Part shown: piece by piece, positions 16,050 to 56,338 of the stretch | Position numbering within the stretch: position 1 is the stretch's first letter | Layout of the letters: every line of letters starts with the position of its first letter | NCBI RefSeq assembly: GCF_900109775.1 | Contig: NZ_FOAX01000002.1 | Span: 1,302,001-1,366,000 of the forward strand | Source of the DNA: Pseudoxanthomonas sp. GM95 | Lineage (GTDB): Bacteria > Pseudomonadota > Gammaproteobacteria > Xanthomonadales > Xanthomonadaceae | Direction: 5' to 3' | Length of the DNA stretch: 64,000 nt | Notes under the pieces: generated by a model | What the model saw: only the letters and a program-made list of their open reading frames with translations | What the model was told of the DNA's origin: nothing | Database searches by the model: none | Program-made: the position numbers and the translations under genes

Positions 16050-16891
16050 GTACCGTCGGCCGTGCGCGCTGGCCCACCTGGACGATCCTGGGGCTGGGCT
16101 TTGCCTTCCTGTATCTGCCGGTGCTGCTGCTGATCATCTGGAGCTTCAACAGTTCGCGCCTGGCGACGGTCTGGGCCGGGTTTTCGTTCAAGTGGTATGG
16201 CGAACTGCTGCGCGACCAGTCGATGCTGGATGCGGCTTGGGTCAGCCTGCGGATCGCGTTCTGGACCGCGACGGCCTCGGTCGTGCTGGGCACGCTGGCG
16301 GCGCTGGTGATGACGCGGATGCGTCGCTTCCCCGGCAAGACCTTGTTTGGCGGCCTGATCACCGCGCCGCTAGTGATGCCCGATGTGATCATCGGCCTGT
16401 CGATGCTGCTGATGTTCGTCTCGCTGGGTGACCTGTTTCACTTCCAGCCCAAGGGGATGATGTCGATCTGGATCGCCCACACGACCTTCGCGCTGGCCTT
16501 CGTCACCGTCGTGGTGTCCTCGCGCATGGCCGAGCTGGACAAGTCGCTGGAAGAAGCGGCGATGGACCTTGGCGCCAACCGGATCAAGGTGTTCTTCCTG
16601 ATCACGCTGCCGATCATCGCGCCGGCGCTGGTCTCGGGCTGGTTGCTGGCGTTCACGCTGTCGCTGGATGACGTGGTGATCGCCAGCTTCGTCTCCGGCC
16701 CCAGCTCGACCACGCTGCCGATGAAGGTGTTCTCCTCGGTGCGGCTGGGCCTGAGCCCGAAGATCAACGCGCTGGCGACCTTGATGATCGTGATCGTCTC
16801 GGTCTGCGCCTTCATCGGCTGGTGGCTGATGTACCGCAGCGAGAAGCGCCGCAAGCTGGACATGCAGTTGGCGCTGCAGGACAACGGTTGA
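16046..16891 (+). CDS. potI: polyamine ABC transporter permease (PotI-like)
   Basis: 281 residues; the ATG overlaps the potH stop by 4 bases and follows a GGGAGG ribosome site. Six membrane segments are expected. The EAA loop reads EEAAMDLGANRIKVFFLITL, and the last part contains the SLDDVVIASFVSGP region conserved in PotI/PotC. It pairs with PotH as the translocation pore. No convincing terminator follows; the next gene starts 141 bases later and belongs to a different function. Confidence 0.94.
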   Translation: MSTVGRARWPTWTILGLGFAFLYLPVLLLIIWSFNSSRLATVWAGFSFKWYGELLRDQSMLDAAWVSLRIAFWTATASVVLGTLAALVMTRMRRFPGKTLFGGLITAPLVMPDVIIGLSMLLMFVSLGDLFHFQPKGMMSIWIAHTTFALAFVTVVVSSRMAELDKSLEEAAMDLGANRIKVFFLITLPIIAPALVSGWLLAFTLSLDDVVIASFVSGPSSTTLPMKVFSSVRLGLSPKINALATLMIVIVSVCAFIGWWLMYRSEKRRKLDMQLALQDNG

Positions 16892-23104: not shown

Positions 23105-24382
23105 ATGCCAGGGACACGGCACAGCATCGCCATCGTCGGTTACGGCACCGCAGGCCAGACGGCCGCGGCGCTGCTGGCGGCCGATGGCCATCAGGTTGAA
23201 GTATTCGAACAGGCGCCGGAACTGGGGCCGGTCGGTGCGGGCTTCCTGCTGCAGCCCACCGGTTTGCAGGTGCTGTGGGAGATGGGCCTGCTGCCCCAGG
23301 CGCTGATGCATGGGCGCCGGATCGAGCGCCTGTATGGCGAAACGCCCGCCGGCCGCGCGGTGATGGACATGCGTTATCTCGATCTGGACCCGCAGCTGTT
23401 CGGGCTGGGCATGCAGCGTGGCGCGTTGTTCTCGCTGCTGGCGCAGGCCTGGAGCGGCTTCGGCGGCGTACGCTGCGGCACGCGCATCACGGAAGTGAGC
23501 GACGACACCCGGCGCGTGCGCGATGCATCTGGCACCTGGCATGGGCCGTTCGACCTGGTGATCGCCGCCGACGGCGCGGGCTCGGCGCTGCGCCGGCATA
23601 CGCAGGGCGTGCGTTCGGATGCGGCCTATCCGTGGGGCGCGCTGTGGTGTCTGGTGCCGCAGGAGGATTGGGCCTGGCCGCACGAGCTGCGCCAGCGCTA
23701 CATCGCCGCGCGCAAGATGATCGGCATGTTGCCGGTCGGCACGCGTCCGGGCGATGACACGCCGCGGCTGAGTTTCTTCTGGAGCCTGCCGGCCGATGGG
23801 TTCGCGGCCTGGGAGCAGGGCGGCATGCCCGCGTGGCGCGAAGAGGTCGCGGCGATGTGGCCGCAGGCCGATGCGCGCCTGCATCAGCTGACCGGCTGCA
23901 CGCAGTTGGCGCGCGCCGGGTATCGCGATGCAGTGCTGCACACCTGGCATCGCGACCGCCTGCTGCTGATGGGCGATGCGGCCCATGCGATGAGCCCGCA
24001 GCTGGGGCAGGGCGTCAACATGGCGCTGATGGACGCGGCGGCCCTGCGCGACGCGTTGCGTGCCGAAGCCGCGCTGCCCGCGGCGCTGGCGCGCTACCAG
24101 CAGCAGCGCCAGGCGCATGTGGCGATCTACCAGTTCTGGAGCCGCTGGTTGACGCCGCTGTTCCAGTCCAACCGCGATCGCGTGGCCGCGCTGCGCGACG
24201 CCGCCTTCCTGCCGCTGGGGCGCATGCCCGGTGGGCGCGGCCATATGTTGCGCGTGCTCAGTGGCACCCAGCGCGGGTTGTTCGGCCGCTTGGCGTTGGC
24301 GCCGGGTTTTCTCGAAGCGCTGGCGAACGTGTCGGTGCTGCCGGCGCCAGTGCCAGCGCTGGCAGCGGCCGAGATGCCCTAA
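23105..24382 (+). CDS. FAD-dependent aromatic-ring-type monooxygenase (UbiH/PHBH family)
   Basis: 425 residues from the ATG at 23105 behind an AAGGAC ribosome site; the longer open frame upstream is a shadow of the dehydrogenase gene. Three FAD/NADPH fingerprints are visible: the Rossmann motif IVGYGTAGQTAAALLA at the N-terminus, the DG motif DLVIAADGAGSALRR, and the GD motif RLLLMGDAAHAMSPQLGQG. Enzymes of this family hydroxylate small ring compounds with O2 and NAD(P)H. The substrate is unknown, and the neighbours (a dehydrogenase and, convergently, DNA repair genes) do not point to one. Its stop overlaps the pdeM stop on the other strand by 3 bases. Confidence 0.86.
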   Translation: MPGTRHSIAIVGYGTAGQTAAALLAADGHQVEVFEQAPELGPVGAGFLLQPTGLQVLWEMGLLPQALMHGRRIERLYGETPAGRAVMDMRYLDLDPQLFGLGMQRGALFSLLAQAWSGFGGVRCGTRITEVSDDTRRVRDASGTWHGPFDLVIAADGAGSALRRHTQGVRSDAAYPWGALWCLVPQEDWAWPHELRQRYIAARKMIGMLPVGTRPGDDTPRLSFFWSLPADGFAAWEQGGMPAWREEVAAMWPQADARLHQLTGCTQLARAGYRDAVLHTWHRDRLLLMGDAAHAMSPQLGQGVNMALMDAAALRDALRAEAALPAALARYQQQRQAHVAIYQFWSRWLTPLFQSNRDRVAALRDAAFLPLGRMPGGRGHMLRVLSGTQRGLFGRLALAPGFLEALANVSVLPAPVPALAAAEMP

Positions 24383-25026
24383 GCCGCAGGCAGCGCGATG
24401 GCCTCGCCTTCGACGCAGACGATCAGTTGTTCGCCCGTCGCAAGGTCCGGCTCCACGCCGGCGGTGAACTGCGAGAACGCCGGCAGCACCGTTAGCCGCT
24501 CGCGCAGCAGGAAGGCCGGCCAGCGTTGCGTCGTGCCCGGCGTCTTGAACACCGGATGCAGATGGCCGCACAGCACGTGCAGTTCCTCGTGCGGATGTGG
24601 ATCGTGGCGTAGCTGGAACGGACCATCGTCGACGCTGTCGGGCAGCAGTTCGAAGCCCAGGTCGGTGGCGGCGGCCAGCGCACGATCGTGATTGCCCGCC
24701 AGTGCAGCCACGCGCACGCGATGGTGCTGGCGGCGCCATTCGTCCACGCGGCGGCGCCAGCTGGCCTGCGGCGCGGGGCCGTGCAGCACATCGCCCAGGA
24801 TCCACAGCTCCTGCGCATCTGTGTGCGCCAGCAATGCGGCCAGGCGGGCCAGATCGTGCGAGGTGCCGCCGCTGGGCAGGGAGATGCCGGCACGACGGAA
24901 CACATCGCCCTTGCCCAGGTGCAGATCGGCGATCAGCAGCCGCCGGCGCGCCGGCCAGTACAGGGCGCGGTCGCCCAGGGCGCGCATCGGTTCACCGGCA
25001 ATCTCCAGGTCCAGCTCAACGGCCAT
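24379..25026 (-). CDS. pdeM: ligase-associated DNA damage response endonuclease PdeM
   Basis: 215 residues of the calcineurin-like metallophosphoesterase fold. Metal-binding motifs run in the expected order: DLHLGKGD, GDVLHGP, LAGNHDRAL and CGHLHPVF. PdeM belongs to a conserved four-protein group with an ATP-dependent ligase, an Lhr-like helicase and an MBL exonuclease, thought to act in a DNA repair pathway. It is the last gene of a leftward operon and overlaps the helicase gene by 11 bases. The 3' end meets the convergent monooxygenase gene. Confidence 0.92.
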   Translation of the reverse strand: MAVELDLEIAGEPMRALGDRALYWPARRRLLIADLHLGKGDVFRRAGISLPSGGTSHDLARLAALLAHTDAQELWILGDVLHGPAPQASWRRRVDEWRRQHHRVRVAALAGNHDRALAAATDLGFELLPDSVDDGPFQLRHDPHPHEELHVLCGHLHPVFKTPGTTQRWPAFLLRERLTVLPAFSQFTAGVEPDLATGEQLIVCVEGEAIALPAA

Positions 25027-27571
25027 GCTTCTTTTCCAACTGCTGCGCGGCGCGCTGCACGCGCGTCTTCCAGTCCTCGGTGCTGAGCTGCCCGCGCAGG
25101 CTTTCGGCCCACAGCGGGAAGGACAGCGGCGTCAGGCTGGTGGGGCGGTGCAGACGCAGCCGACGCTGGGCGCAATCGTGCAGCGTGGCGGCCAGGCGGT
25201 CCAGTTCCAGCGTGCCGCTGAAGACCTCGCGGCGCGCCTGCCCCAGCAGCAGATGATCGGGATCGTGGCGGGTCAGCACGTCGAACAGCAGCCCGCTGGA
25301 AGCCTGCAGCTGGCGCATGCTGCGCGGCGTCTTGCCCGGCAGCGATGGCGGCAGCAGGCCGGAGACGCGTGCGATTTCGCGGAATTGGCGCCGTGCCAGT
25401 TCACCCAGGTTGAGGCTGGCGGTGAGGTCTTCGATCAGGTGTTCGGGTTGCAACAACGCGTGCAACGCGGCTTTGTCCAATTCGGCAGCGTTCGCAGGCG
25501 ATAGCACCAGCCCGTAATCATTGGCGGCGAAGGCGAAGGTGTTGGACTGCAGGCGACCCCAGCGCAGCGCCAGCAGTGCGGCCAGGCCTTCGTGCACCTG
25601 GCGGCCGGCGAACGGATACAGGAACACGTGCAAGCCGTCGCGCGCCTTGACCTGTTCGCACAGCAGCGTGCCGGGTGCGGGCAGGGCGGAGAGACGTTCC
25701 TGCAGGGCCAGCAGCGGCGCGATGGAACGCAGCTCGGGTGCCGCGTGATCGCCGCCGAACACCGCTTCCACCTCGCGCCCCAGCTCGGACGACAGCGGCA
25801 TGCGCCCGCCCATCCACTTGGGCACGGTGCCATCGCCGCCTTTGGCCATGCGCACGTAAGCGGTCATGTCCTCCAGCCGCACCAGCTCCAGCATCCGGCC
25901 GGCGAACTGGAAGCGGTCGCCGCGGCGCAGGCGGCCGACGAACAGTTCCTCGATCGAGCCCAGCCCGCCGCCGCGCAGAAACTTCACCTGCACGCTGCCA
26001 TCGCTGGTGATGGTGCCGATGGACAGGCGATGGCGCAGCGCGACCTTGCGGTCGTGCACGCGATAGACGCCATCTTCGTCGCGCACGACCTTGTGGTAAT
26101 CCGGATAGCGGTCCAGCGCGCTGCCGCCGCGTTCGATGAAGTCCAGCACGGCCTGCCACGTTTCATCGTCCAGCTGGGCGAAGGCCTGGGTGCCGCGCAC
26201 TTCTTCTAGCAAGGCATTGGGATCGAAGCCGCCGCCCAACGCCAGCGTCACGCAATGCTGGGCCAGCACATCCAGCGACAGGCGTGGCGCGTGGCGCGGT
26301 TCGATTTCGTTGCGGGCGATGGCCTGGCGCGCGGCGGCGTACTCGACCAGCTCCAGCGCATGCGTCGGCACGCACACCACATGGCCAGCCTCGCCCGGCC
26401 GATGGCGCGCGCGACCGGCGCGTTGCAGCAGTCGCGCGATGCCCTTGGGACTGCCGATCTGCAGCACCTGATCGACGGCGGGGAAATCCACACCCAGATC
26501 CAGGCTGGAGGTGGCGACCACGCAGCGCAACGTGCCGCAGCGCAGGCCTTGTTCGGCTTCATTGCGCAACTTGGGGCTGAGCGAGCCGTGATGCAGGGCG
26601 AGCGTGGCCGGGTCTTCCGGCCAGACCGACGACAGCGCCTGATGCCATAGCTCGGCCTGCGCGCGGGTGTTGGTGAACACCAGGCTGGTCTTCACCGCCA
26701 GCAGTTTTTCCAGCACGCGCGAGAGCTGCGCCAGGCCGAGATGACCAGACCAGGGGAAGCGTTCGCCGGCCTTGGGACGCAGCGTCTCCAGCGTGAGCGT
26801 GCGCGGCCGCACGCCGGCGACCATCGGCGCGTCAGGCGTGTTGGGCAGCAGCGCATCGCGCGCTTCTTCCAGATTGCCCAGCGTCGCCGACAGGCCCCAG
26901 GTGCGCATGCCGGGCGATAGCTTGCGCAACCGCGCCAGGCCCAGCTGCAACAGCACGCCGCGCTTGTTGGCCAGCAGCTCATGCCATTCGTCGACGATGA
27001 CCGCGCGGATGTCCTGCAGCTGCGGTGCAGTGTCGGGGTAGGACAGCAGCAGTGCGAGTGACTCCGGTGTGGTCACCAGCACGTCGAGCTTGCCCGCACG
27101 CGCCAGGCGCTTGTCGCGTGCGCTGGCATCGCCGGTGCGCTGGCCCACCTGCCAGTCCAGGCCGACGCCGGCGATGGCCTTGTTGAGGGCGCGCGTGGTG
27201 TCGGCGGCCAGCGCCTTGAGCGGCGTGATCCACAGCACCTGCAGCGGGCGCACGCGGTTCTTCTTCAGCGCGGTGGTCAGCTGTTTGCGCTCGCGCACGG
27301 CTTCCAGCAGCGGCCCGCCGAACGCGGCTAAGGTCTTGCCGCTGCCGGTCGGCGTATGCAGCAGGCCGGAGCGGCCTTGCAAATAATGGCTCCAGACTTC
27401 GCGCTGGAATGGCAGCGCCTTCCAGCCGCGCGTCTTGAACCAGTCCAGCAGCGGCGCTTCGATCGATCGCCGGCTGTGCGGTGCAGGCTTTTCTTTGATA
27501 GCTGAAACAGCCGGCTTGTTCTTCAACCGCGCGACCTTGCGCGCCGGTGTGCGTGGTTTGGCTTCACTCAC
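25016..27571 (-). CDS. ligase-associated DNA damage response DEXH-box helicase (Lhr-like)
   Basis: 851 residues. A superfamily 2 helicase with Walker A TPTGSGKTLAAF, a DEXH-type motif VIVDEWHELLANKRG, motif III SATLGNLEEA, and motif VI LLQRAGRARHRPGE, followed by the winged-helix and Lhr-core region (about residues 440-800). The start is a GTG whose bases overlap the ligase stop (GTGA), so ligase and helicase are translationally coupled. Lhr-core helicases of this length, next to a ligase and PdeM, form the ligase-associated repair set. It is predicted to unwind DNA for processing by the exonuclease and ligase; this is family knowledge, not shown here. Confidence 0.94.
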   Translation of the reverse strand: MSEAKPRTPARKVARLKNKPAVSAIKEKPAPHSRRSIEAPLLDWFKTRGWKALPFQREVWSHYLQGRSGLLHTPTGSGKTLAAFGGPLLEAVRERKQLTTALKKNRVRPLQVLWITPLKALAADTTRALNKAIAGVGLDWQVGQRTGDASARDKRLARAGKLDVLVTTPESLALLLSYPDTAPQLQDIRAVIVDEWHELLANKRGVLLQLGLARLRKLSPGMRTWGLSATLGNLEEARDALLPNTPDAPMVAGVRPRTLTLETLRPKAGERFPWSGHLGLAQLSRVLEKLLAVKTSLVFTNTRAQAELWHQALSSVWPEDPATLALHHGSLSPKLRNEAEQGLRCGTLRCVVATSSLDLGVDFPAVDQVLQIGSPKGIARLLQRAGRARHRPGEAGHVVCVPTHALELVEYAAARQAIARNEIEPRHAPRLSLDVLAQHCVTLALGGGFDPNALLEEVRGTQAFAQLDDETWQAVLDFIERGGSALDRYPDYHKVVRDEDGVYRVHDRKVALRHRLSIGTITSDGSVQVKFLRGGGLGSIEELFVGRLRRGDRFQFAGRMLELVRLEDMTAYVRMAKGGDGTVPKWMGGRMPLSSELGREVEAVFGGDHAAPELRSIAPLLALQERLSALPAPGTLLCEQVKARDGLHVFLYPFAGRQVHEGLAALLALRWGRLQSNTFAFAANDYGLVLSPANAAELDKAALHALLQPEHLIEDLTASLNLGELARRQFREIARVSGLLPPSLPGKTPRSMRQLQASSGLLFDVLTRHDPDHLLLGQARREVFSGTLELDRLAATLHDCAQRRLRLHRPTSLTPLSFPLWAESLRGQLSTEDWKTRVQRAAQQLEKKHGR

Positions 27572-29172
27572 CGCGCCAGCGCCTTCAGGTCTTCCAGCCG
27601 GTCGGCCTCAGCCATCGGCTTGTCGTGGCGCCAGCGCAGGATGCGCGGGAAACGCGTGGCCACGCCCGATTTGTGGCGCTTGCTCAGGTTGACCGCCTCG
27701 AACCCGAGTTCGAACACATGATGCGGCGTTACCGCGCGCACCGGGCCGAAGCGCTCGGTGGTGTGCGCGCGGATCCAGCTGTCGAGCTTCATGATCTCGG
27801 AATCGTCCAGGCCCGAATACGCCTTGGCCACCGGCACCAGCGCGTCGCCGTCCCACAGCGCGAAGGTGTAGTCGGTGTAGAGCGTGCTGCGACGGCCATG
27901 GCCGGCCTGCGCGTAGATCAGCACCGCATCGATGGTGAGCGGGTCGATCTTCCACTTCCACCAGTCACCGCGCTTGCGCCCGCCCTGGTAGATCGAGCTG
28001 CCGCGCTTCAGCATCAGGCCTTCGACACCGCGCTCACGGGAGCCTTTGCGGAGTTGCGCTGCCGCTTCCCAGCTGTCGGCCTGCACCTGTTGCGAGACCA
28101 CGATGCGCGGATCGCCATGCGCCTCCAGCAACCCGGCGAGCAGGGCGCGGCGTTCGTCCAGCGGTCGCTCACGCAGGTCCTCGCCATCCAGTTCCAGCAG
28201 GTCGTAGGCGAGCACGCGCGCAGGCGTGTCGGCCAGTGTTTTCGCGCCAGGCTTGCGCCGCTGGATGCGGGTCTGCAAGGCGGTGAAGGGCATCGGCGCG
28301 TCTTCACCATCGCGCCACGCCATGAGTTCGCCATCGATCACGCAGTCGCGCGCGAGCGTGGCAGCCGCCTGTTCAATCTCGGGAAAGCGCCCATCCAGCC
28401 GCTCCTCGCCGCGCGACCACAGCGCGACTTCGCCATGACGCCGGATCAGCTGCAGGCGGATGCCATCCCACTTCCATTCCAGTCGCCAGTCGCCGATCTC
28501 GCCCAGCGTCTGCACATCGGCCTCCAACGGCGAGGCGAGGAAGAAGGGGTACGGCTGTTGGCGATCGCTGGGCAGGGCTTCTTCCGAAAGCAGGTCCTGC
28601 AGGAACTGCGGCGTCGGCGCCCACGTGCCCAGCATGCGCTGGGCGATGCGTGAGATGTCGATGCCGCTCATCTCGGCCAGCGCCTGCTGCACCAGGCGCT
28701 GCGAGACGCCCACGCGCAGGGCGCCGGTCAGCAGCTTGTTGAACACCAGGCGTTGGCCGTAAGGCAGCGACTGCCAGGCATCGACCACCACCGCGCGGCG
28801 CACGGCCTCATCCTGGTTGGCGACCGGCAGCAGGCGTTCCTCAATCCATTCGGCCAGGCCGAGGTCCGGCGGAGGATCGGTCGGATCATCCAGCAGCAGC
28901 GCCAGCGTTTCGGCCAGGTCGCCGACGTGGTCGTAGCTGTCGTCCACCAGCCAGTCGGGCGTGGCCGAGACCTGCGCGATCCACGCGCGCAGCTCGTTGG
29001 TGCCGGCGATCTTCTGGCGTGCGCCGGTGAGCTTGCCGCCGGACAGCAGGTACAGCGCCCACACCGCATCGCGCGGCGGCGCGTCACGGAAATACGCGAT
29101 CAGCGCCGCGCGCTTGTCGCCCGTGGCGGTGCTTTCGTCCAGTTCGCGATAGAGGTCGGCGAAGCGTTTCAT
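27568..29172 (-). CDS. ATP-dependent DNA ligase of the ligase-associated repair cluster
   Basis: 534 residues, starting with ATG at 29172. An N-terminal helical ligase domain (about 1-200) is followed by the adenylation domain. The AMP-accepting lysine lies in LEWKWDGIRLQL (KxDG motif). Later motifs include VIDGELMAW, VEGLMLKRG and the terminal WWKWKIDPLT segment. The C-terminal OB-fold holds VATRFPRILRWRHDK. It seals nicks using ATP and is distinct from the NAD-dependent replicative LigA. It carries no LigD-style polymerase or nuclease domains. It is preceded upstream by the exonuclease gene after a 181-base gap that holds a repeat. Confidence 0.94.
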   Translation of the reverse strand: MKRFADLYRELDESTATGDKRAALIAYFRDAPPRDAVWALYLLSGGKLTGARQKIAGTNELRAWIAQVSATPDWLVDDSYDHVGDLAETLALLLDDPTDPPPDLGLAEWIEERLLPVANQDEAVRRAVVVDAWQSLPYGQRLVFNKLLTGALRVGVSQRLVQQALAEMSGIDISRIAQRMLGTWAPTPQFLQDLLSEEALPSDRQQPYPFFLASPLEADVQTLGEIGDWRLEWKWDGIRLQLIRRHGEVALWSRGEERLDGRFPEIEQAAATLARDCVIDGELMAWRDGEDAPMPFTALQTRIQRRKPGAKTLADTPARVLAYDLLELDGEDLRERPLDERRALLAGLLEAHGDPRIVVSQQVQADSWEAAAQLRKGSRERGVEGLMLKRGSSIYQGGRKRGDWWKWKIDPLTIDAVLIYAQAGHGRRSTLYTDYTFALWDGDALVPVAKAYSGLDDSEIMKLDSWIRAHTTERFGPVRAVTPHHVFELGFEAVNLSKRHKSGVATRFPRILRWRHDKPMAEADRLEDLKALAR

Positions 29173-29225
29173 GCGTGGCAGCTCCCGAGGTCGAGCGCAT
29201 CACGCACGCAGGCCACCTTGAAGAC

Positions 29226-29325
29226 GTCATTCCCGCGAAAGCGGGAACCCAGCGACGCTGCTTTTTGCGCTGCGGAACCGCAGCGCAACGTCCATGGATC
29301 CCCGCGGTCGCGGGGATGACGGCAT
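29226..29325. repeat. MITE-like inverted repeat inside the DNA repair operon
   Basis: The left end at 29226 (CGTCATTCCCGCG followed by a GCGGGAA arm) and the right end, closing near 29322 (GCGGGGATGACG), are imperfect inverted copies of about 25 bases; each is also a small hairpin. Between them is a perfect stem TTGCGCTGCGG/CCGCAGCGCAA. The ATTCCCGC-n-GCGGGAA core resembles dRS3/ATR-like repeats of Neisseria and dispersed repeats of Xanthomonadaceae. Only one copy lies in the window. Confidence 0.72.
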
Positions 29326-29353
29326 GAGAACGATTGCGAAATGCCGACCGCGG

Positions 29354-30355
29354 TCACTCCCCACCGCCGAAATCAGTACGAAACGCCTCGGCCTCGATGC
29401 CGGCTTCGTTCATCGCGCGGATGATCGCGTCGGTGTTGCCGTGCGTGGCGATGACGCGGCGTGCGCCGGTTTCGCGCACGGTGCGCAGCAGATCGGGCCA
29501 GTCGGCGTGATCGGACACGACGAAGCCACGGTCGTAGTTGCGTCGCCGCCGGTTGCCGCGCACCCGCATCCAGCCCGAGGCAAAGCCCTGCTGCGCCTTG
29601 CGGAAGCGGCGGATCCACGGGCTGCCGGCGGCAGAAGGCGGCGCCAGGATCAACTGCCCGGCGTAATCGCTGCCCTTGGCCGTCTCCGATACCGGCAAGG
29701 TGTCGAGCATGGCGATGCCCGCGCCGCGATACACGTCCACGCCGACCTGGATCGCGCCGTGCAGCAGCGCAGGCTGATCGTCCAGATCGCGCAGTTCGGC
29801 CAACAGCCGCTGCGCCTTGCCCAGCGCATAGCAGTACAGGATCGCCGCCTCGCCACGCGCGGCGCAGTGCCGGCGCCACGCGACGATGTCGCGCGCCACC
29901 TCGCGCGTATCCGGCCAGCGATAGATCGGCAGGCCGAAGGTCGCCTCGGTGATGAAGGTGTCGCACGGCACGACCTCGAACGGCGCGCAGGTCGGATCGG
30001 GCTGGCGCTTGTAGTCGCCCGAGGCCACCCAGACTTCATCGCCCACTTGCACGCGCACCTGCGCCGAACCCAGTACATGCCCGGCCGAATGCAGCGAAAC
30101 CTTCGCATCGCCAATCTGGAAAGCCTCACCGTAGTCGTGGATCGCGTAGTCCTGCTCGCCCAGCCGCCATTGCAGGATCGGCAGGCTCTCGCGTGTTGCC
30201 CAATAGCGGCCCATGCCGGTGCGGGCGTGGTCGCCGTGGCCGTGCGTGATGACCGCGCGCGGCACCGGCTTCCACGGGTCGATGTGGAAGTCGCCGGCCG
30301 GGCAGTACAGCCCTTCCGGGCGCAGGACGATCAGGTCGTGGGAAGCAATGGCCAT
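29354..30355 (-). CDS. ligase-associated DNA damage response exonuclease (MBL fold)
   Basis: 333 residues from the ATG at 30355 (MAIASHDLIVLRPEG); an open frame 27 codons longer lacks support. It is a beta-lactamase/beta-CASP nuclease of the CPSF/SNM1-like type. The metal-binding signature HGHGDHARTG lies near residues 38-47, with later residues SAGHVLGSAQ and VVSDHADWPDLL typical of beta-CASP nucleases. It is the first gene of the leftward repair operon: exonuclease, ligase, helicase, PdeM. It is separated from the ligase gene by 181 bases with a repeat, so the downstream genes may need their own promoter. Confidence 0.92.
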   Translation of the reverse strand: MAIASHDLIVLRPEGLYCPAGDFHIDPWKPVPRAVITHGHGDHARTGMGRYWATRESLPILQWRLGEQDYAIHDYGEAFQIGDAKVSLHSAGHVLGSAQVRVQVGDEVWVASGDYKRQPDPTCAPFEVVPCDTFITEATFGLPIYRWPDTREVARDIVAWRRHCAARGEAAILYCYALGKAQRLLAELRDLDDQPALLHGAIQVGVDVYRGAGIAMLDTLPVSETAKGSDYAGQLILAPPSAAGSPWIRRFRKAQQGFASGWMRVRGNRRRRNYDRGFVVSDHADWPDLLRTVRETGARRVIATHGNTDAIIRAMNEAGIEAEAFRTDFGGGE

Positions 30356-30396
30356 GAGCGGGCAGGGTGCATGCCGGGTTGTGCAGAGGCCGACAA

Positions 30397-30438
30397 CGTT
30401 GGGTTCGCCCGTCTCAGTTCCTGAGACCCGGCCCAACG
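30397..30438 (+). other. interrupted hairpin in the 165-base gap before the hypothetical lipoprotein
   Basis: GTCTCAG (30411-30417) and CTGAGAC (30421-30427) form a tight stem with a 3-base loop. It is flanked by CGTTGGG (30397) and CCCAACG (30432-30438), which extend the fold. No T-run follows. It may be a leader structure or a protein-binding site for either divergent gene. Confidence 0.45.
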
Positions 30439-35430: not shown

Positions 35431-37602
35431 TTACTCGGCCTTGGCATCCAGGCCGCGTTTTTCCAGCAGCGGCTCGATCTGCGGCGCGTGGCCGGCGAAG
35501 TCCTGAAACAGCTTCATCGCGTCCTGGCTGCCGCCCTGCGACAGCAGCGTCTTGCGGAAACGATCGCCGTTGGCGCGGCTCAGGCCGCCATGTTCTTCGA
35601 ACCATTTCTGCGTATTGGCATCCAGCACTTCCGACCAGATGTAGGCGTAGTAGCCGGCCGAGTAGCCGCCCATGATGTGGCTGAAGTACGGCGTGCGATA
35701 GCGCGGCGGCACCGGTGCGTAGGCGATGCCATCGGCGGCCAGTGCCTTGGCTTCGAAGTCCATCACGCCGGCCGCGTCGGGCACCTGGTCTTCGGTGATC
35801 TGGTGCCAGCGCTGGTCCAGCATCGCCGCGCCCAGGTACTCGGTGGTGGCAAAGCCCTGGTTGAACTTGGCCGCGGCCAGCACCTTGTCCAGCAGCGCCT
35901 GCGGCATGGCTGCGCCGCTCTGGTGGTGCTTGGCATAGTGCTTGAGGATCGACGGATAGTCGGCCCACATCTCGTTGACCTGCGAGGGGAACTCGACGAA
36001 GTCGCGCGGCACGCTGGTGCCGGAGAAGTACGGATACTTCACGTCCGAGAACATGCCGTGCAGCGCGTGGCCAAACTCGTGGAAGGTGGTGGTGACTTCA
36101 TCCCAGGTCAGCAGCGTCGGCTGGCCGGCCGGCGGCTTGGGGATGTTGGGATGGTTGGCGACCACCGGCTTGTCGCCGGTCAGGCCGGACTGAGAGACGT
36201 AGGAATTCATCCACGCGCCGCCGCGCTTGGACGCACGCGCATAGGGATCGAAGATGAAGATCGCCAGCTGCGAGCCATCGGCATCGAACACGTCATAGAC
36301 GAAGGTGTCCGGGCGATACTTCGGCAGGTCGGTGCGCTCCTTGAAGGTCAGGCCGTATTCCTGGCCGGCCGCGTAAAACACGCCGTTTTCCAGCACGTTC
36401 TTCATCTCGAAGTACGGCTTGAGCTGCGACTCGTCGAAGTTGTACTTGGCCTGGCGCACCTTCTCGCTGTAGTAGGCCCAGTCCCAGGCTTCCAGCTTGA
36501 AGCTCGGCTTGCCGGCGGCCTTCTGCTCGGTATCGATCATCGCCTGCAGGTCGGCGGCCTCGCGCTTGGCGTTGGCGACCGCGGCCGGGGCCAGTTTGCC
36601 CAGCATGTCGTTGACCGCCTGCGGGGTCTTGGCGGTCTGGTCTTCCAGCGAATAGGCGGCGTAGGTCGGGTAGCCGAGCATCTTCGCCTTCTGCGCGCGC
36701 AGGGTCATGATCCGCTACACCAGCTTGGTGTTGTCGAATTCATTGTCCCGGCTGCCACGGTTGATCGAGGCTTTGTAGATCTTCTCGCGCAGGTCGCGAT
36801 TGCTGAGGTTGGTCAGCGGCGGTTGGCCGGTGGTGTTGAGCAGAGTGATGACGTACTTGCCCTCCAGCTTGCGCGACTTGGCTTCGTCGGCGGCGGTGGA
36901 GATCTCCGACTCGCTCAGGCCTGCCAGCTGCTTGGCGTCATCGACGACCACGGCCGAGGCATTCACTTCCTTCAGCACGTTCTGGCTGAACTGCGTGCCC
37001 AGCGCGGCCAGCTCGGCGTTCATTTCCTTGAGCTTGGCCTTATCCGCGTCGGAGAGCTTGGCGCCGTCGCGCACGAAATCGGTGTGGTACTTCTCGACCA
37101 GGCGCAGCCCCTGCGCGTCCAGGCCCAGCTTGGCGCGGTTGTCGTACAGCGCCTGGAGGCGCGCGAACAGCTTGCCGTTGAGGCTGATCGCATCGCGATG
37201 CGCGGCGAACTTGCCCGAGTATTCGCTGCGCAGCTTCTCGCGCGTCGGGTTGGTATCGGTGCCGACCAAGTTGAAGAAGGTCGTCGTCGCGCGGTCCAGC
37301 ACCTGGCCGCTCTTTTCCATTGCCACGATGGTGTTGTCGAAGGTCGGCTTGGCCGGGTTGTTGGCGATCGCGTCGATCTCTTTGAGCTGCTGCGCCATGC
37401 CGGCATCGAACGCCGGGGCGAAGTCGGCATCGGTGACCTTGTCGAACTGCGGGTAGTGCAGCGGCAGCGGGCTCTCGGCGAAGAAGATATTCGCGGACTG
37501 GCCGGTGGCGGCCGGCGCGCCGGTCTGGGCATGGGCGGGCATGGTGGTTCCAAGGGCAATGGCAAGCGCCAGGGCGAGGCGGGTGGTCATGCGGTGCAGC
37601 AT
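35431..37602 (-). pseudogene. dcp: M3 family dipeptidyl carboxypeptidase (Dcp) gene with an in-frame amber stop
   Basis: Codons 1-295 and the remaining ~427 codons are both fully in frame and read as one M3 metallopeptidase. A signal peptide opens it (MLHRMTTRLALALAIALG, cut near AHAQ). The zinc motif TTFHEFGHALHG lies near residue 507. The only interruption is a TAG (genomic 36715-36717) between ...NTKLV and RIMTLRAQKAK. Dcp enzymes cleave C-terminal dipeptides in the periplasm. Both halves keep normal composition and length (~722 residues in all), so the change is recent, a sequencing error, or read through. An ATG at 36708 could restart the second half, but it lacks a ribosome site. Confidence 0.85.
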
Positions 37603-37740
37603 CCATAGACAAAGGTGATCGCTGAGGCTAACCCAGCGCGGCCTGCCAGCCCGCGTGACCAAAGTCCTGCATGACGCACCTGTCATCCGAAAGATGCTGA
37701 GTGGAATTGCACACAAAAATTTGACGTAGTTCGCACATTG

Positions 37741-44970: not shown

Positions 44971-45074
44971 CTCCCCGCGTCGTGACGGCGCGGATTCCCC
45001 CGATGCAGCGAGGTCCGCTGCGTTATTGAAAACCCCCAAGTCACGTTTTGGGCAAGCCCCGGGAGGGCCGATAC

Positions 45075-48056
45075 ATGACGCATACCACCCAGATCCAACG
45101 ACCCGCGCGCAGGCTGCTGAGCTGCGCACTCGCCAGTTGCCTGCTGCTGGGCGCCGCGCCACTGGCCTTTGCCCAGTCCACCTCGGCCACGCTGCGTGGT
45201 CAGGTGGCCGGTGCCGCAGAAGGCACCACCGTCACTGCCACCAACACCGCCAGCGGATTCAGCCGCAGCGTGCCGGTCAGCGCGGACGGTAACTACTCGG
45301 TCGCCGGCCTGCCGCCGGGCGCCTACAAGGTGGACGTGGTCGCCAACGGCGCGGCCACCTCGCAGACGGTCACGCTGCAGGTCGGCCAGACCGCCACGCT
45401 CAATCTTGATGGCGGCGGCAGCACCGCGGTCACGCCGGAAGGCGGCGCCAAGGACCTGGATACGGTCAAGGTCACCGCGCCGGCGCTGATAGAATCCAAG
45501 ACCTCGGAAGTGGCCAGCTACGTCACCCAGCGGCAGATCGAATCGCTGCCGCAGACCTCGCGCAACTTCCTGGCTTTCGCTGACACCGTGCCGGGCATGA
45601 AGTTCGAGACCAACCCGGGCGACGGCTCCACCAAGCTGCAGTCCGGCGCGCAGAGCGCCAACAACATCAACGTGTTCGTCGATGGCGTGGGCCAGAAGAA
45701 CTACGTGCTGGCTGGCGGCATCACTGGCCAGGATTCCAGCCGCGGCAATCCGTTCCCGCAGGCGGCGATCGGCGAGTACAAGGTCATCACGTCCAACTAC
45801 AAGGCCGAGTACGACCAGCTTTCCAGTGCTGCAGTGACCGCGGTGACCAAGTCCGGCGGCAACGAGTTCCACGGCAATTTCTTCTGGGACTACACCAACG
45901 CCGACTGGCGCGAGAAGAAGGTGACCGAGCAGGGCGAGGGTGCCGAGAAGATCTATTCGCGTGACGAACAGTACGGCGCGTCCTTCGGCGGCCCGATCGT
46001 GAAGGACAAGGCGCACTTCTTCTTCGTCTACGAAGGCAAGGATTACATCTCGCCCAAGGACATCTTCCCGGCGTCTGGCTATGACGTGTCCGACCTGCCG
46101 GCCAACCTGCAGGACCAGGTCGGCACCAGCAACGTCCCGTTCCACGAAGACCTGTACTTCGGGAAACTGGACTGGTCTGTGGATGAGAATAACCTGCTGG
46201 AGCTGACCACCAAGGTTCGTGACGAGACCGGCGTGGCCAATGTCGGTGACCAGAATTCGGCGACCTATGGCACCGACCAGAACGTCAAGGAAACCCGCGT
46301 GGATCTGCGCTGGCAGCTGACCGCGGGCGACTGGCTCAACGATGCGCACCTGACGTATGAGAAAGCCAGTTTCGAGCTGGCGCCGCAGAGCTTCGGCAAC
46401 GGCTACATCCTGACCGACGGCAATAATCCCACCGGCAACGTGATCTTTCGTAGCGGCGCGGGCAATGGAGGTTTCCAGGACAAAAGCCAGGATGGGTATT
46501 CGTTCCAGAACGACCTGACCTATTCAGGCCTGGAAGACCACACGTTCAAGATGGGTGTGAAATACAAGCAGATCAAACTGCGTACCACCGAGCAGCAGCC
46601 GTACAACCCGCAGTACTACTACGACATCAACACTGGCACCGAGATTCCGTACACCATCAGCTTCACCTCGCCACTGGCGGGGACCAACGGTGGTTCGGTG
46701 GAGTCGGACAACAAACAGTTCGGCATCTACTTCCAAGATGACTGGCGCGTCACCGACCGCCTGGAATTGAACCTGGGCCTGCGCTGGGATTACGAGAAAA
46801 CGCCGAGCTACCTGGATGCAGTCACCGATCCAAGCGTGGTCGCGGCGATCTACGGCCAGGATCCCAATGCACCGGCCGGGCAGACCTACGCGCAGACGCT
46901 TGCGCTGGGCGGCGTGGATATCTCCAACTACATCAGCACAGGCAATAACCGCAAAGCGTTCAAGGACGCCTGGCAACCGCGCATCGGCTTTTCGTACGAT
47001 CTGAGTGGCGACGAGAGCCACGTGCTGTTCGGTGGTGCCGGCCGTTCCTACGATCGCAATATCTTTGATTACCTGGCGCTGGAGCAGACCAAGGCGACCT
47101 TCCCCAGCTACACCTACCAGATCAACACGACCGGTCATTCCTGCGCGGCAGGGACCGGCACGTGCCTGAACTGGGACGAGTCGTTGCGTGACCAGGCCAC
47201 GCTGGATGCGCTGGTCGCCAATGCACCGGGGCTGGGGCGTGAGGTCGACCTGCTGGCCAACAACCTGAAGGTGCCGTACTCGGATCAGTTCAGCATCGGC
47301 ATCCGCGACAGCTTCCAGATCGCCGGGCAGCAATGGAACAGCTCGGTCGCGCTGCAGCGCATCGTGTCCAAGGATGGCTTCGCCTTTCTGCTGGGCAACC
47401 GCTTGCCGGATGGCAGTTTCTTCGCGCCCGGCACCATTTCCGGATCGCCGGCGTCGTCGTACGGCGTGCCGGGCTACGGATCACTGATCCTGGGCACCAA
47501 CGGCATCGAAAGCCGCAACAATTCCTTGCTGATCGGCCTGGATAAGCCGTATTCCGATGCCTCGCCCTGGAACGTTAACGTCGCCTACACCTTCAGCGAC
47601 GCGGAAGAGAACCGCCAGTTCGGCGAGCACTACGCGCTGGATTATCCGACGCTGGCCGGTTACGGCTGGTTCTCGTCCGGCGGCGTGGCCAAGCACCGGC
47701 TGGTGCTGAGCGGCATGGTCGATGGCCCGTGGGATACGCAGCTCTCCGGCAAGCTCGTGCTGGCCACGCCCGAACCGGTCTACGTGACCTATTGCCCGCC
47801 GGAAACCGCTGGCCAGTGCCGCATCCGCCAGTACAAGTCCGACAGCACGCTGGGCTACAAGCAGATGGACCTGGCGCTGCAGAAGATCTGGGACACCGGC
47901 ACTGACGTGAAGCTGCGCATGCGCGCGGACATCCTCAACGTCTTCAACTGGGAAAACTTCGACAGCTACAACGTCAACTTCGATGACGGCACGGCAGTCG
48001 GTGTCAATCAGTACATCACCCGGACTTTCAAGCTTTCGCTTGGGCTGGACTGGTAA
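45075..48056 (+). CDS. Oar-like TonB-dependent receptor (first copy)
   Basis: 993 residues from the ATG at 45075, after a GGGAGG ribosome site. A signal peptide ends near PLAFAQ. Next comes a carboxypeptidase-regulatory-like domain (about 35-115: STSATLRGQVAGAAEGTTVT), then a plug domain with VFVDGVGQKNYVLAGG and QDSSRGNPFPQAAIGEYK, then a large outer-membrane barrel ending in KLSLGLDW. It would move an oligosaccharide across the outer membrane using TonB energy. It is probably co-regulated with the downstream genes. A paralogue lies at 53369-56338. Substrate unknown; inferred to be a glucan fragment because of the neighbouring glycosidases. Confidence 0.92.
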   Translation: MTHTTQIQRPARRLLSCALASCLLLGAAPLAFAQSTSATLRGQVAGAAEGTTVTATNTASGFSRSVPVSADGNYSVAGLPPGAYKVDVVANGAATSQTVTLQVGQTATLNLDGGGSTAVTPEGGAKDLDTVKVTAPALIESKTSEVASYVTQRQIESLPQTSRNFLAFADTVPGMKFETNPGDGSTKLQSGAQSANNINVFVDGVGQKNYVLAGGITGQDSSRGNPFPQAAIGEYKVITSNYKAEYDQLSSAAVTAVTKSGGNEFHGNFFWDYTNADWREKKVTEQGEGAEKIYSRDEQYGASFGGPIVKDKAHFFFVYEGKDYISPKDIFPASGYDVSDLPANLQDQVGTSNVPFHEDLYFGKLDWSVDENNLLELTTKVRDETGVANVGDQNSATYGTDQNVKETRVDLRWQLTAGDWLNDAHLTYEKASFELAPQSFGNGYILTDGNNPTGNVIFRSGAGNGGFQDKSQDGYSFQNDLTYSGLEDHTFKMGVKYKQIKLRTTEQQPYNPQYYYDINTGTEIPYTISFTSPLAGTNGGSVESDNKQFGIYFQDDWRVTDRLELNLGLRWDYEKTPSYLDAVTDPSVVAAIYGQDPNAPAGQTYAQTLALGGVDISNYISTGNNRKAFKDAWQPRIGFSYDLSGDESHVLFGGAGRSYDRNIFDYLALEQTKATFPSYTYQINTTGHSCAAGTGTCLNWDESLRDQATLDALVANAPGLGREVDLLANNLKVPYSDQFSIGIRDSFQIAGQQWNSSVALQRIVSKDGFAFLLGNRLPDGSFFAPGTISGSPASSYGVPGYGSLILGTNGIESRNNSLLIGLDKPYSDASPWNVNVAYTFSDAEENRQFGEHYALDYPTLAGYGWFSSGGVAKHRLVLSGMVDGPWDTQLSGKLVLATPEPVYVTYCPPETAGQCRIRQYKSDSTLGYKQMDLALQKIWDTGTDVKLRMRADILNVFNWENFDSYNVNFDDGTAVGVNQYITRTFKLSLGLDW

Positions 48057-53368: not shown

Positions 53369-56338
53369 ATGTCAGTCCAATCCATCCCCCACGCTGGATC
53401 CCATCGTTTCAAGCGCTCGGCCCTGGCCTGCGCCCTGGCCGGCAGCCTGCTGCTGATCACCGCCCCGGTGCTGGCGCAGTCCACAGCCGCCACCTTGCGT
53501 GGCCAGGTCAGCGGCGCAGCGCCCGACACCACCATCACCGTCACCAACACCGCGACCGGCTTCAGCCGCACCGTCAAGGCGGGCGCAGACGGCAGCTATA
53601 GCGCGCCTGGTTTGCCACCGGGTTCGTACAAGGTCGACGTGGTCAGCAACGGCGCGGCCAGCAGCCAGAACGTGACGCTGGCCGTGGGCCAGACCGCCAC
53701 GCTCAACCTGGGCGACACCGCCGCCGCGACACCGGCAGGCGATGCCACCGATCTGGGCGCGGTCAAGGTCACCGCCGCACCGTCGGCACTGGTGGAAACG
53801 CGCACCTCGGAGAACGCCACCTACATCTCCAACGTGCAGATCCAGCGCCTGCCGCAGGCCACGCGCAACTTCCTGGAAGTGGCCGACACCGTGCCCAGCG
53901 TGCAGTTCACGCGTGACAGCGACGGCAATACCAAGATGCGCTCGGGCGCGACCTCGGCCGATGGCACCAACGTCTACATCGACGGCATCAGCCAGAAGAA
54001 CTATGTGCTGACTGGTGGCGTGTCCGGCCAGGATTCCAGTCGCGGCAATCCGTTCCCGCAGTCGGCGATCGGCGAGTACAAGGTCATCACCTCCAACTAC
54101 AAGGCCGAGTACGACCAGGTCTCCAGTGCGGCGATCGTGGCCTCGACCAAGTCGGGCACGAATGATTTCCACGGCAGCATGTTCTGGGACACCACCAACG
54201 ATGGCTGGCGTCGAGAGAGCCCGTTGGAGAAGGAAGCCGGCACGCGTGACGATTTCGCCGAGACCGAGTGGGGCGCGACCTTCAGCGGCCCGATCCTCAA
54301 GGACCGCGCGCATTTCTTCATCGCCTACGAGAACAAGGAGTACACCACGCCGGCCACGGTGATCCCCGGTTCGATCTATTCCAACCGCGTGGATGAACTG
54401 CCCGAAGATCTGCAGCCGCTGGTGCGCACGCAGAGCTCGCCGTTCAAGGAAGACCTGTACTTCGGCAAGATCGACTGGACCCTGGGCGAGAACAGCCTGT
54501 TCGAGCTGACCGGCAAGTACCGCAAGGAAGACGGCCTGGGCGACCTGGGCGACACCACCACCTACGAGCACGCCAGCCGCAATGGCCAGGAAGAAAAACG
54601 CGCCAACCTGCGCTGGCAGTACAGCGGCGAGCGTTTTCTCAACGACCTCAACCTGAGCTATGAGAGCGCGTATTTCACCCAGGATCCGTTGACCGATGGT
54701 TCGGGCTACGTGCTGTCCTACGTCCCCTTCGCCGGCCAGGAATCCACGATCCTCACCGCGGGTGCGGGCAGCAGCTACCAGAACAAGGGCCAGGAAGGCT
54801 GGGCGCTGCAGGACGACCTGACCCTGGACAGCATCGACTGGCACGGCGGCCACACCGTCAAGATGGGCTTCAAGTACAAGTCGGTCGAGCTGGATTCGAC
54901 CCAGATCAATCCGGCCAATCCGCAGTACTACTACAACATCCTCACCGACACCGATACGCCGTACAGGGCGAGCTGGGGTGATACCGACAGCGGCAAGGTC
55001 ACCTCCAAGAACAAGCAGTACGGCCTCTACCTGCAGGACGATTGGGAGGTCAACGAACACCTGACCTTGAACCTGGGCGTGCGCTACGACTACGAGAAGA
55101 CGCCGTCGTTCCTCAACTTCGTCACGCCGTCCGATGTCGCCAGCGCGCTGCAGAACTGGTCCAACCTGGACAATGCCAACTACAACATCAACGACTACAT
55201 CAGCACCGGCAACAACCGCAAGGCGTTCAAGAATGCCTGGCAGCCGCGCCTGGGCTTCTCGTATGACCTGTTCGGCGACCAGAACCATGTGATCTACGGC
55301 GGTGCCGGCCGTGCCTACGACCGCAATCTGTTCGATTACCTGGCGCTGGAACAGCTCAACAACAACTCCAAGTCCTATAGCTACTACTTCAGCAGCGCCA
55401 ACACGCCGTGCTACGGCGATCCGTGCGTGGCTTGGAACGACCGCTATGCCACGCAGGGAGGGCTGGATACGCTGGCCAACGACACCACCGGTGGCGGCGG
55501 TCGCGAGATCTACCTGATCGACAACAACGTCAAGGTGCCGTACTCCGACCAGTTCAGCGTGGGCATGCGCAACACGCTGCACTTCTGGAACAACGACTGG
55601 TTCACCGATGTGTCCCTGAGCCGCATCGAAAGCCATGACGGCTTCGTGTTCCTGCGCGGCAATCGCCGTGCCGACGGTTCGTACCTGGCCGATGGCACCA
55701 CCTCGGGTTCGCCGACCGATTCGCCCGAGGGCTACAGCACCATCGTGCTGGGCACCAACGGCGTGGAGACGCGCAACAACCAATTGGCGATGAAGATCGA
55801 GAAGCCCTACGACGCCGAGTCCGGCTGGGGCATGAGCCTGGCCTACACGTATTCCGATGCGCAGGAGAATCGCCAGTTCGGCGAGCACTACGCGCTGGAT
55901 TACGCCTCGATCGCCGATTACGGCTGGCATCAGGCTGCTGGCATTCCCAAGAACCGCCTCGTCGCCACCGGCATCTACGATCTGCCGTGGTGGGACATCT
56001 CGCTGTCGGGCAAGCTCTCGCTGGCCAGCCAGACGCCGGTGTACGGCTACAACTGCCTGGCCGGCAACGACCAGTGCTTCATCGAGCAGTTCACGCCGGA
56101 CCACACCCTGGGCTACAAGGAATTCAGCCTGGCGTTGAACAAGGAGATCGACACCGGCACCAACATCAAGATGAACGTGCGGGCCGACGTCATCAACGTG
56201 TTCAACTGGGTCAATTACTCCAGCTACAGCACCGACACCGGCACGGCGAGCGACCTCAACACCGCCTATGCCACGCCCAACGGACTGCTGGCGCTGCCGA
56301 TGCGCACCTTCAAGCTTTCCTTCGGCCTGAACTGGTAA
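53369..56338 (+). CDS. Oar-like TonB-dependent receptor (second copy)
   Basis: 989 residues from the ATG at 53369. Architecture equals the first copy: signal peptide ending near PVLAQ, carboxypeptidase-regulatory-like domain (STAATLRGQVSGAAPDTTIT), plug with GISQKNYVLTGG and the shared QDSSRGNPFPQSAIGEYK, and a barrel ending in KLSFGLNW. The two receptors share many identical blocks but differ in the extracellular loops, as expected if they take up related but different glycans. It is followed by a terminator and then the large glycosidase gene. Confidence 0.92.
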   Translation: MSVQSIPHAGSHRFKRSALACALAGSLLLITAPVLAQSTAATLRGQVSGAAPDTTITVTNTATGFSRTVKAGADGSYSAPGLPPGSYKVDVVSNGAASSQNVTLAVGQTATLNLGDTAAATPAGDATDLGAVKVTAAPSALVETRTSENATYISNVQIQRLPQATRNFLEVADTVPSVQFTRDSDGNTKMRSGATSADGTNVYIDGISQKNYVLTGGVSGQDSSRGNPFPQSAIGEYKVITSNYKAEYDQVSSAAIVASTKSGTNDFHGSMFWDTTNDGWRRESPLEKEAGTRDDFAETEWGATFSGPILKDRAHFFIAYENKEYTTPATVIPGSIYSNRVDELPEDLQPLVRTQSSPFKEDLYFGKIDWTLGENSLFELTGKYRKEDGLGDLGDTTTYEHASRNGQEEKRANLRWQYSGERFLNDLNLSYESAYFTQDPLTDGSGYVLSYVPFAGQESTILTAGAGSSYQNKGQEGWALQDDLTLDSIDWHGGHTVKMGFKYKSVELDSTQINPANPQYYYNILTDTDTPYRASWGDTDSGKVTSKNKQYGLYLQDDWEVNEHLTLNLGVRYDYEKTPSFLNFVTPSDVASALQNWSNLDNANYNINDYISTGNNRKAFKNAWQPRLGFSYDLFGDQNHVIYGGAGRAYDRNLFDYLALEQLNNNSKSYSYYFSSANTPCYGDPCVAWNDRYATQGGLDTLANDTTGGGGREIYLIDNNVKVPYSDQFSVGMRNTLHFWNNDWFTDVSLSRIESHDGFVFLRGNRRADGSYLADGTTSGSPTDSPEGYSTIVLGTNGVETRNNQLAMKIEKPYDAESGWGMSLAYTYSDAQENRQFGEHYALDYASIADYGWHQAAGIPKNRLVATGIYDLPWWDISLSGKLSLASQTPVYGYNCLAGNDQCFIEQFTPDHTLGYKEFSLALNKEIDTGTNIKMNVRADVINVFNWVNYSSYSTDTGTASDLNTAYATPNGLLALPMRTFKLSFGLNW

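Follow-up and report, generated by a model that had tools for sequence, protein, structure and literature searches.

What should we make of a bacterial gene that keeps a single reading frame from end to end, save for one stop codon within it? The question is raised by a gene of peptidase family M3 in Pseudoxanthomonas sp. GM95, located on the minus strand of a stretch of 64,000 nucleotides that was analysed as a whole (assembly GCF_900109775.1, contig NZ_FOAX01000002.1, positions 1,302,001 to 1,366,000; hereafter the window, in which the positions of the gene and of its parts are counted). An earlier note, made from the letters of this DNA, had left three readings side by side, a very recent mutation, a sequencing error or a stop that is read through, and had added that a second polypeptide might begin just after the stop. 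In-frame stops within bacterial genes are, according to the accessible part of Belinky et al. (2021; PMC7918605), widespread and mostly short-lived; the same part warns that many of them are artefacts, and suggests readthrough for some. Our search of the literature found no description of this peptidase gene, or of this allele, in this group of organisms.

One gene, one frame and one internal stop

Translated over 37608-35431 (minus strand), the gene runs in one frame, in which the internal stop is a single TAG at 36717-36715 and the terminal stop a TAA at 35433-35431, and this bears out the original description of an M3 peptidase gene interrupted by one in-frame TAG and otherwise undamaged. 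The 5′ part (36718-37590) corresponds to 291 residues, without the zinc motif, and its N-terminus, MTTRLALALAIALGTTMPAHA, resembles a signal peptide when judged by eye. The TAG itself is codon 292, and the 3′ part (35431-36714) is open up to the terminal TAA. The zinc-binding motif HEFGH lies intact downstream of the stop (36081-36067), as had been stated, and an ATG (36708-36706), separated from the TAG by six bases, does have its A as the seventh base after the stop. As for the extent given to the gene, 35431-37602, its end stands, while the start is probably the ATG at 37590 (MTTRL...) rather than that at 37602, because G007, the closest relative used in this work, has no ATG at the latter position.

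That we are dealing with one gene follows from the way its two halves match the model of peptidyl-dipeptidase Dcp, NF007624, one after the other: residues 32-290 of the first half correspond to model positions 3-261, and residues 2-421 of the second half to positions 267-680. Two neighbouring genes are ruled out by this ordered alignment to a single model. When the terminal stop is excluded, 177 of the 719 codons of the gene are one substitution away from a stop, so that one nonsense change, taken alone, would be no improbable event.

The profile of family M3, PF01432 (cut-off 27 bits), scores 432.5 bits across the whole match, the TAG included, and 403.4 bits over the 3′ part alone, counted from the ATG; used to search the genome, it reports one TAG within the match to this gene and none in two paralogues. 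The HExxH zinc motif is a hallmark of the family, and HEFGH conforms to it. The equivalog cut-off of NF007624, 944 bits, is reached neither by the halves taken separately (253 and 540 bits) nor by the intact orthologue of G007 (816.6 bits), which is why we name the gene Dcp-like; the enzyme is probably periplasmic. Dcp (structure 1y79) and the K-26 dipeptidyl carboxypeptidase (5l43) belong to the same family, and the 3′ part aligns lengthwise to the chains of both and has an HEFGH zinc motif in common with them. The gene differs from Dcp in that its G007 orthologue stays below the equivalog cut-off, whereas a lipoprotein paralogue in the GM95 genome is above it, and in that the copy studied here carries a TAG.

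Antisense to the gene (window 35488-37608, plus strand) runs an open frame of 706 amino acids, which has no stop in the matching stretch of a second relative, G009, and two in that of G007. Codon bias in G+C-rich DNA is its probable origin.

The codon in related organisms

The earlier note had called for a comparison with close relatives at this very codon. Among 80 named loci, the best 80 of 489 confirmed, all 80 have a sense codon at the site, for Ser in 61 and for Ala in 19, and no stop was seen in any of their matched stretches; the loci of highest identity among these 80 are those of Pseudoxanthomonas, namely P. spadix, P. composti and P. winnipegensis. The other genomes of a first comparison agree, with a sense codon in 28 of the 28 loci that reach the site (one further locus falls short of it). 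So does the genus itself: of 30 loci fetched, that of GM95 has TAG and the 29 others a sense codon, the genus search having found a match in 36 of 38 genomes, GM95 included (35 of the 37 others). Of the six matching genomes beyond these 29 loci, two were covered by the first comparison, and four of the 35 are outside the loci examined. These three sets of loci overlap. The stop is therefore private to the GM95 genome among those examined. With a stop in none of the 80 named and none of the 29 other same-genus loci, we have the disabling change absent from relatives that marks a young pseudogene; conserved readthrough would show as a stop kept across relatives ahead of a constrained 3′ part, and this stop is present in one genome only.

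The commonest codon of relatives at the site is one substitution away from TAG. The intact paralogue of the same genome has Gln there, and the Met encoded by the ATG at 36708 is common to the closest relatives. The closest DNA matches to the gene among 40 other genomes are those of G007 and G009, both 89% identical. We also observed that a record titled Bacillus subtilis SK7B5 holds a copy of the peptidase gene at 85% identity, as Stenotrophomonas records do; it is probably a mislabelled or mixed assembly.

Constraint after the stop and its age

An old stop would be expected to have left traces in what follows it. Substitutions were assigned to branches with G007 as sister and four outgroups, a site being counted only if at least three of the four outgroups agreed with the sister and none had the derived base. 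On its own branch the GM95 gene gained 10 nonsynonymous changes, of which 8 precede the stop and 2 follow it, and 31 synonymous ones, of which 16 precede and 15 follow; the 3′ part offers 990 nonsynonymous and 291 synonymous sites. For the sister branch the totals are 25 nonsynonymous and 45 synonymous changes, with 10 and 26 of them after the site. Had the 3′ part evolved freely over the full length of the branch, it should have collected about 51 nonsynonymous changes. The part downstream of the stop thus shows no onset of decay. The share of the branch that can have passed without constraint has a 95% upper bound of 1.1% to 12.4%, varying with the baseline; provided that the 3′ part ceased to be translated when the mutation arose, the age of the stop is at most about 12% of that of the split from the closest relative used. 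The low proportion of nonsynonymous changes after the stop would be equally expected of a protein that is still translated. It does not differ significantly from that before the stop (Fisher p 0.15), nor do the comparisons of own with sister branch and of the parts before and after the stop reach significance (p 0.15 to 0.30); as G007 has several apparent frameshifts, its own count of substitutions may be inflated, and this affects the sister comparison more than the count on the own branch.

Two private changes, V104T and G282D, fall at columns otherwise invariant in relatives. Both precede the stop and none follows it; G282D, where 90 of 90 other sequences have Gly, is ten codons upstream of the TAG. 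Relaxed selection confined to a 3′ part no longer translated would not by itself give this placement. Counted over the 298 columns that do not vary among the other sequences (the lipoprotein paralogue and columns of fewer than 70 letters being excluded), these two changes place GM95 in the upper part of the distribution and do not make it an outlier: of 91 sequences, 83 have none or one such change and seven have 3 to 16.

Decoding of TAG and restart of translation

Could the cell make something of this TAG? All 49 tRNA matches found in the genome were read with ARAGORN (30 loci, then 15 small stretches), and none of the 49 has anticodon CUA, in a set which is incomplete in that it contains neither tRNA-Ile(GAT) nor tRNA-Ala(TGC). 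Those two tRNAs are usually encoded within rRNA operons, and the operons may be missing from the assembly or from the search. Release factor RF1 is intact (508 bits for a cut-off of 423), and the best match to the PylS model, 27.5 bits, is far from the cut-off of 178.15, with similarly weak matches in 13 of 14 control genomes. Neither of the two signs of a recoded TAG, a CUA tRNA or PylS, was thus found within the 49 tRNAs and the PylS model search. TAG also does its ordinary work nearby: it terminates two neighbouring open frames, 23-517 and 527-3415, which share 94% identity with G007, and, among 100 open frames matched mechanically in 184 kb around the site, it ends 8. These counts are rough because such sets include out-of-frame overlaps. 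A change of the genetic code is ruled out by the intact RF1 together with the use of TAG to end other frames well matched in G007. We saw no striking structure after the stop in the 108 bases that begin with the TAG (-36.7 kcal/mol, z -1.67, equalled by 12 of 200 shuffled sequences). The base that follows the TAG is C, which makes for a weak termination context.

Restart at the ATG is another way out, possible and unsupported. No Shine-Dalgarno site is evident by eye before it, and its product would be devoid of signal peptide and would begin at position 40 of the 457 positions of PF01432. The second polypeptide that had been envisaged is thus possible as such, and it could hardly restore the enzyme, because it would have no signal peptide and would miss the first 39 positions of the M3 domain model.

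Quality of the assembly and the neighbourhood of the gene

The GM95 assembly comprises 4.69 Mb in 9 contigs, with a completeness of 99.99 and a contamination of 4.08. Breaks were surveyed by matching 126 open frames of G007, covering 190 kb of that genome, to about 184 kb of GM95 around the site. Of these 126 frames, 20 gave a row with a stop or with two frames; one is the peptidase gene and 17 are explained, leaving two (G007 frames at 16636 and 142017) of 70% and 63% identity. Six rows were read as translations, and one of them proved to be a TGA that precedes the probable start of a gene judged by eye to be NuoF-like, the others being due to a change of frame or a longer end in G007, or to upstream stretches that are fused; 13 further rows were set against overlapping frames of GM95, and 11 of them lie over an intact frame that matches better or equally. 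Apart from the two rows of low identity, the 184 kb show no further clear case of a premature stop or of a frameshift, which indicates that the assembly is not generally error-prone here. In G007, which is a single contig, several genes are split over two frames at high identity; either frameshift errors or genuine breaks of the G007 genome seem to be at work.

The window has further features. Four adjoining genes of a ligase-associated DNA damage response (window 24379-30436, minus strand) encode the endonuclease PdeM, a DEXH helicase, an ATP-dependent ligase and an exonuclease, each above its NCBIfam cut-off. The G007 and G009 stretches at this place have no good match to the block, which was thus either gained here or lost there. 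Two related open frames of about 1000 amino acids each (45048-48056 and 53369-56338, plus strand) have their match in one and the same gene of G007, at 51% for the first and 85% for the second, so that G007 seems to lack the first at this place.

The other M3 enzymes of the genome

The genome has two further M3 genes, both without internal stop. One encodes the lipoprotein paralogue, which counts 723 residues if read from the probable start, opens with a signal of lipoprotein type (LAAC, judged by eye) and exceeds the Dcp cut-off with 979 bits. The other is closest to oligopeptidase A, at 806 bits for a cut-off of 927. Scores of 979 for the lipoprotein paralogue and 817 for the intact G007 orthologue on the same Dcp model make the broken gene a second, Dcp-like enzyme beside a better-fitting Dcp. 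No second intact copy of the broken gene itself was found in the genome: it contains the 31 bases that surround the stop at this one place, and beyond the gene itself the next long match in DNA has an identity of 69%. A plasmid search with 451 bases gave no match. G007 likewise has a second M3 match, of 69% identity, and keeps its copy intact nevertheless; redundancy, then, permits the loss and does not predict it.

A real mutation, an error or a stop that is not obeyed

Taken together, these observations lead us to consider it probable that a very recent nonsense mutation has hit codon 292 of a partly redundant gene for a Dcp-like, probably periplasmic M3 peptidase; the suggestion of a very recent mutation gains support from a stop that is private among the genomes examined and from a 3′ part that has not decayed. 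Translation would end at the TAG and leave a 291-residue exported fragment without zinc site, the activity of the enzyme would be lost, and the loss would probably be tolerated through the intact lipoprotein Dcp and the oligopeptidase A-like M3 enzyme. A single-base error of sequencing or assembly, with the gene intact in the living strain, would also produce a private stop, one base away from the commonest codon of relatives, in a gene the rest of which looks fully constrained. It is made less likely by the survey of 184 kb, with its two low-identity rows as sole remainder, and by the wide occurrence of in-frame stops in single bacterial genes reported in the accessible part of PMC7918605, though a warning about artefacts is given there too. 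We therefore see an error as unlikely, while granting it real weight, and prefer a real mutation.

The same low count after the stop (2 to 15) could be taken to mean that readthrough of the TAG is frequent enough to be useful, some full-length enzyme being made and the 3′ part still being selected; the Gln of the intact paralogue suggests that the fold accepts residues beyond Ser and Ala at this site, and the C after the TAG is in keeping with leakiness. However, a mutation too recent to have left traces accounts for the count equally well, and the tRNAs found, RF1, PylS, the ordinary terminating role of TAG near the site, the unremarkable structure downstream and the absence of the stop from all the relatives examined tell against this reading. 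Readthrough above background thus has no specific support, and we hold it to be very improbable. A shade fainter still is the prospect of a leaky TAG which lowers the enzyme without abolishing it and serves, for a short time, as an allele that turns down one of the two Dcp-like enzymes of the envelope; if this were true, selection would have kept the 3′ part through a small amount of full-length protein. Least credible of all is a split enzyme, in which reinitiation at the ATG would give a functional cytoplasmic peptidase of 425 residues beside the N-terminal fragment. Its product would have HEFGH and most of PF01432, and the ATG is suitably placed in frame; yet the two pieces would end up in different compartments, the start of the domain and an evident Shine-Dalgarno site are absent, and a Met common to the closest relatives did not arise for the sake of reinitiation.

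A probable case of gene loss at its beginning

A very recent nonsense mutation, the reading that we retain, places this gene beside the young nonsense alleles and pseudogenes described in the accessible part of PMC7918605, where an in-frame stop interrupts a gene otherwise constrained, and it fits the short-lived kind. It differs from them in that the stops considered there are shared by at least two species, as a filter against artefacts, a filter that a stop seen in one genome would fail. The observation is correct and the phenomenon ordinary and of little importance in itself. It nevertheless illustrates neatly how gene loss begins, in a genome whose paralogues are intact and with a limit set to the age of the event, and it comes with a warning: a single internal stop with preserved flanks should not be taken as recoding, for a mutation that is simply recent looks alike.
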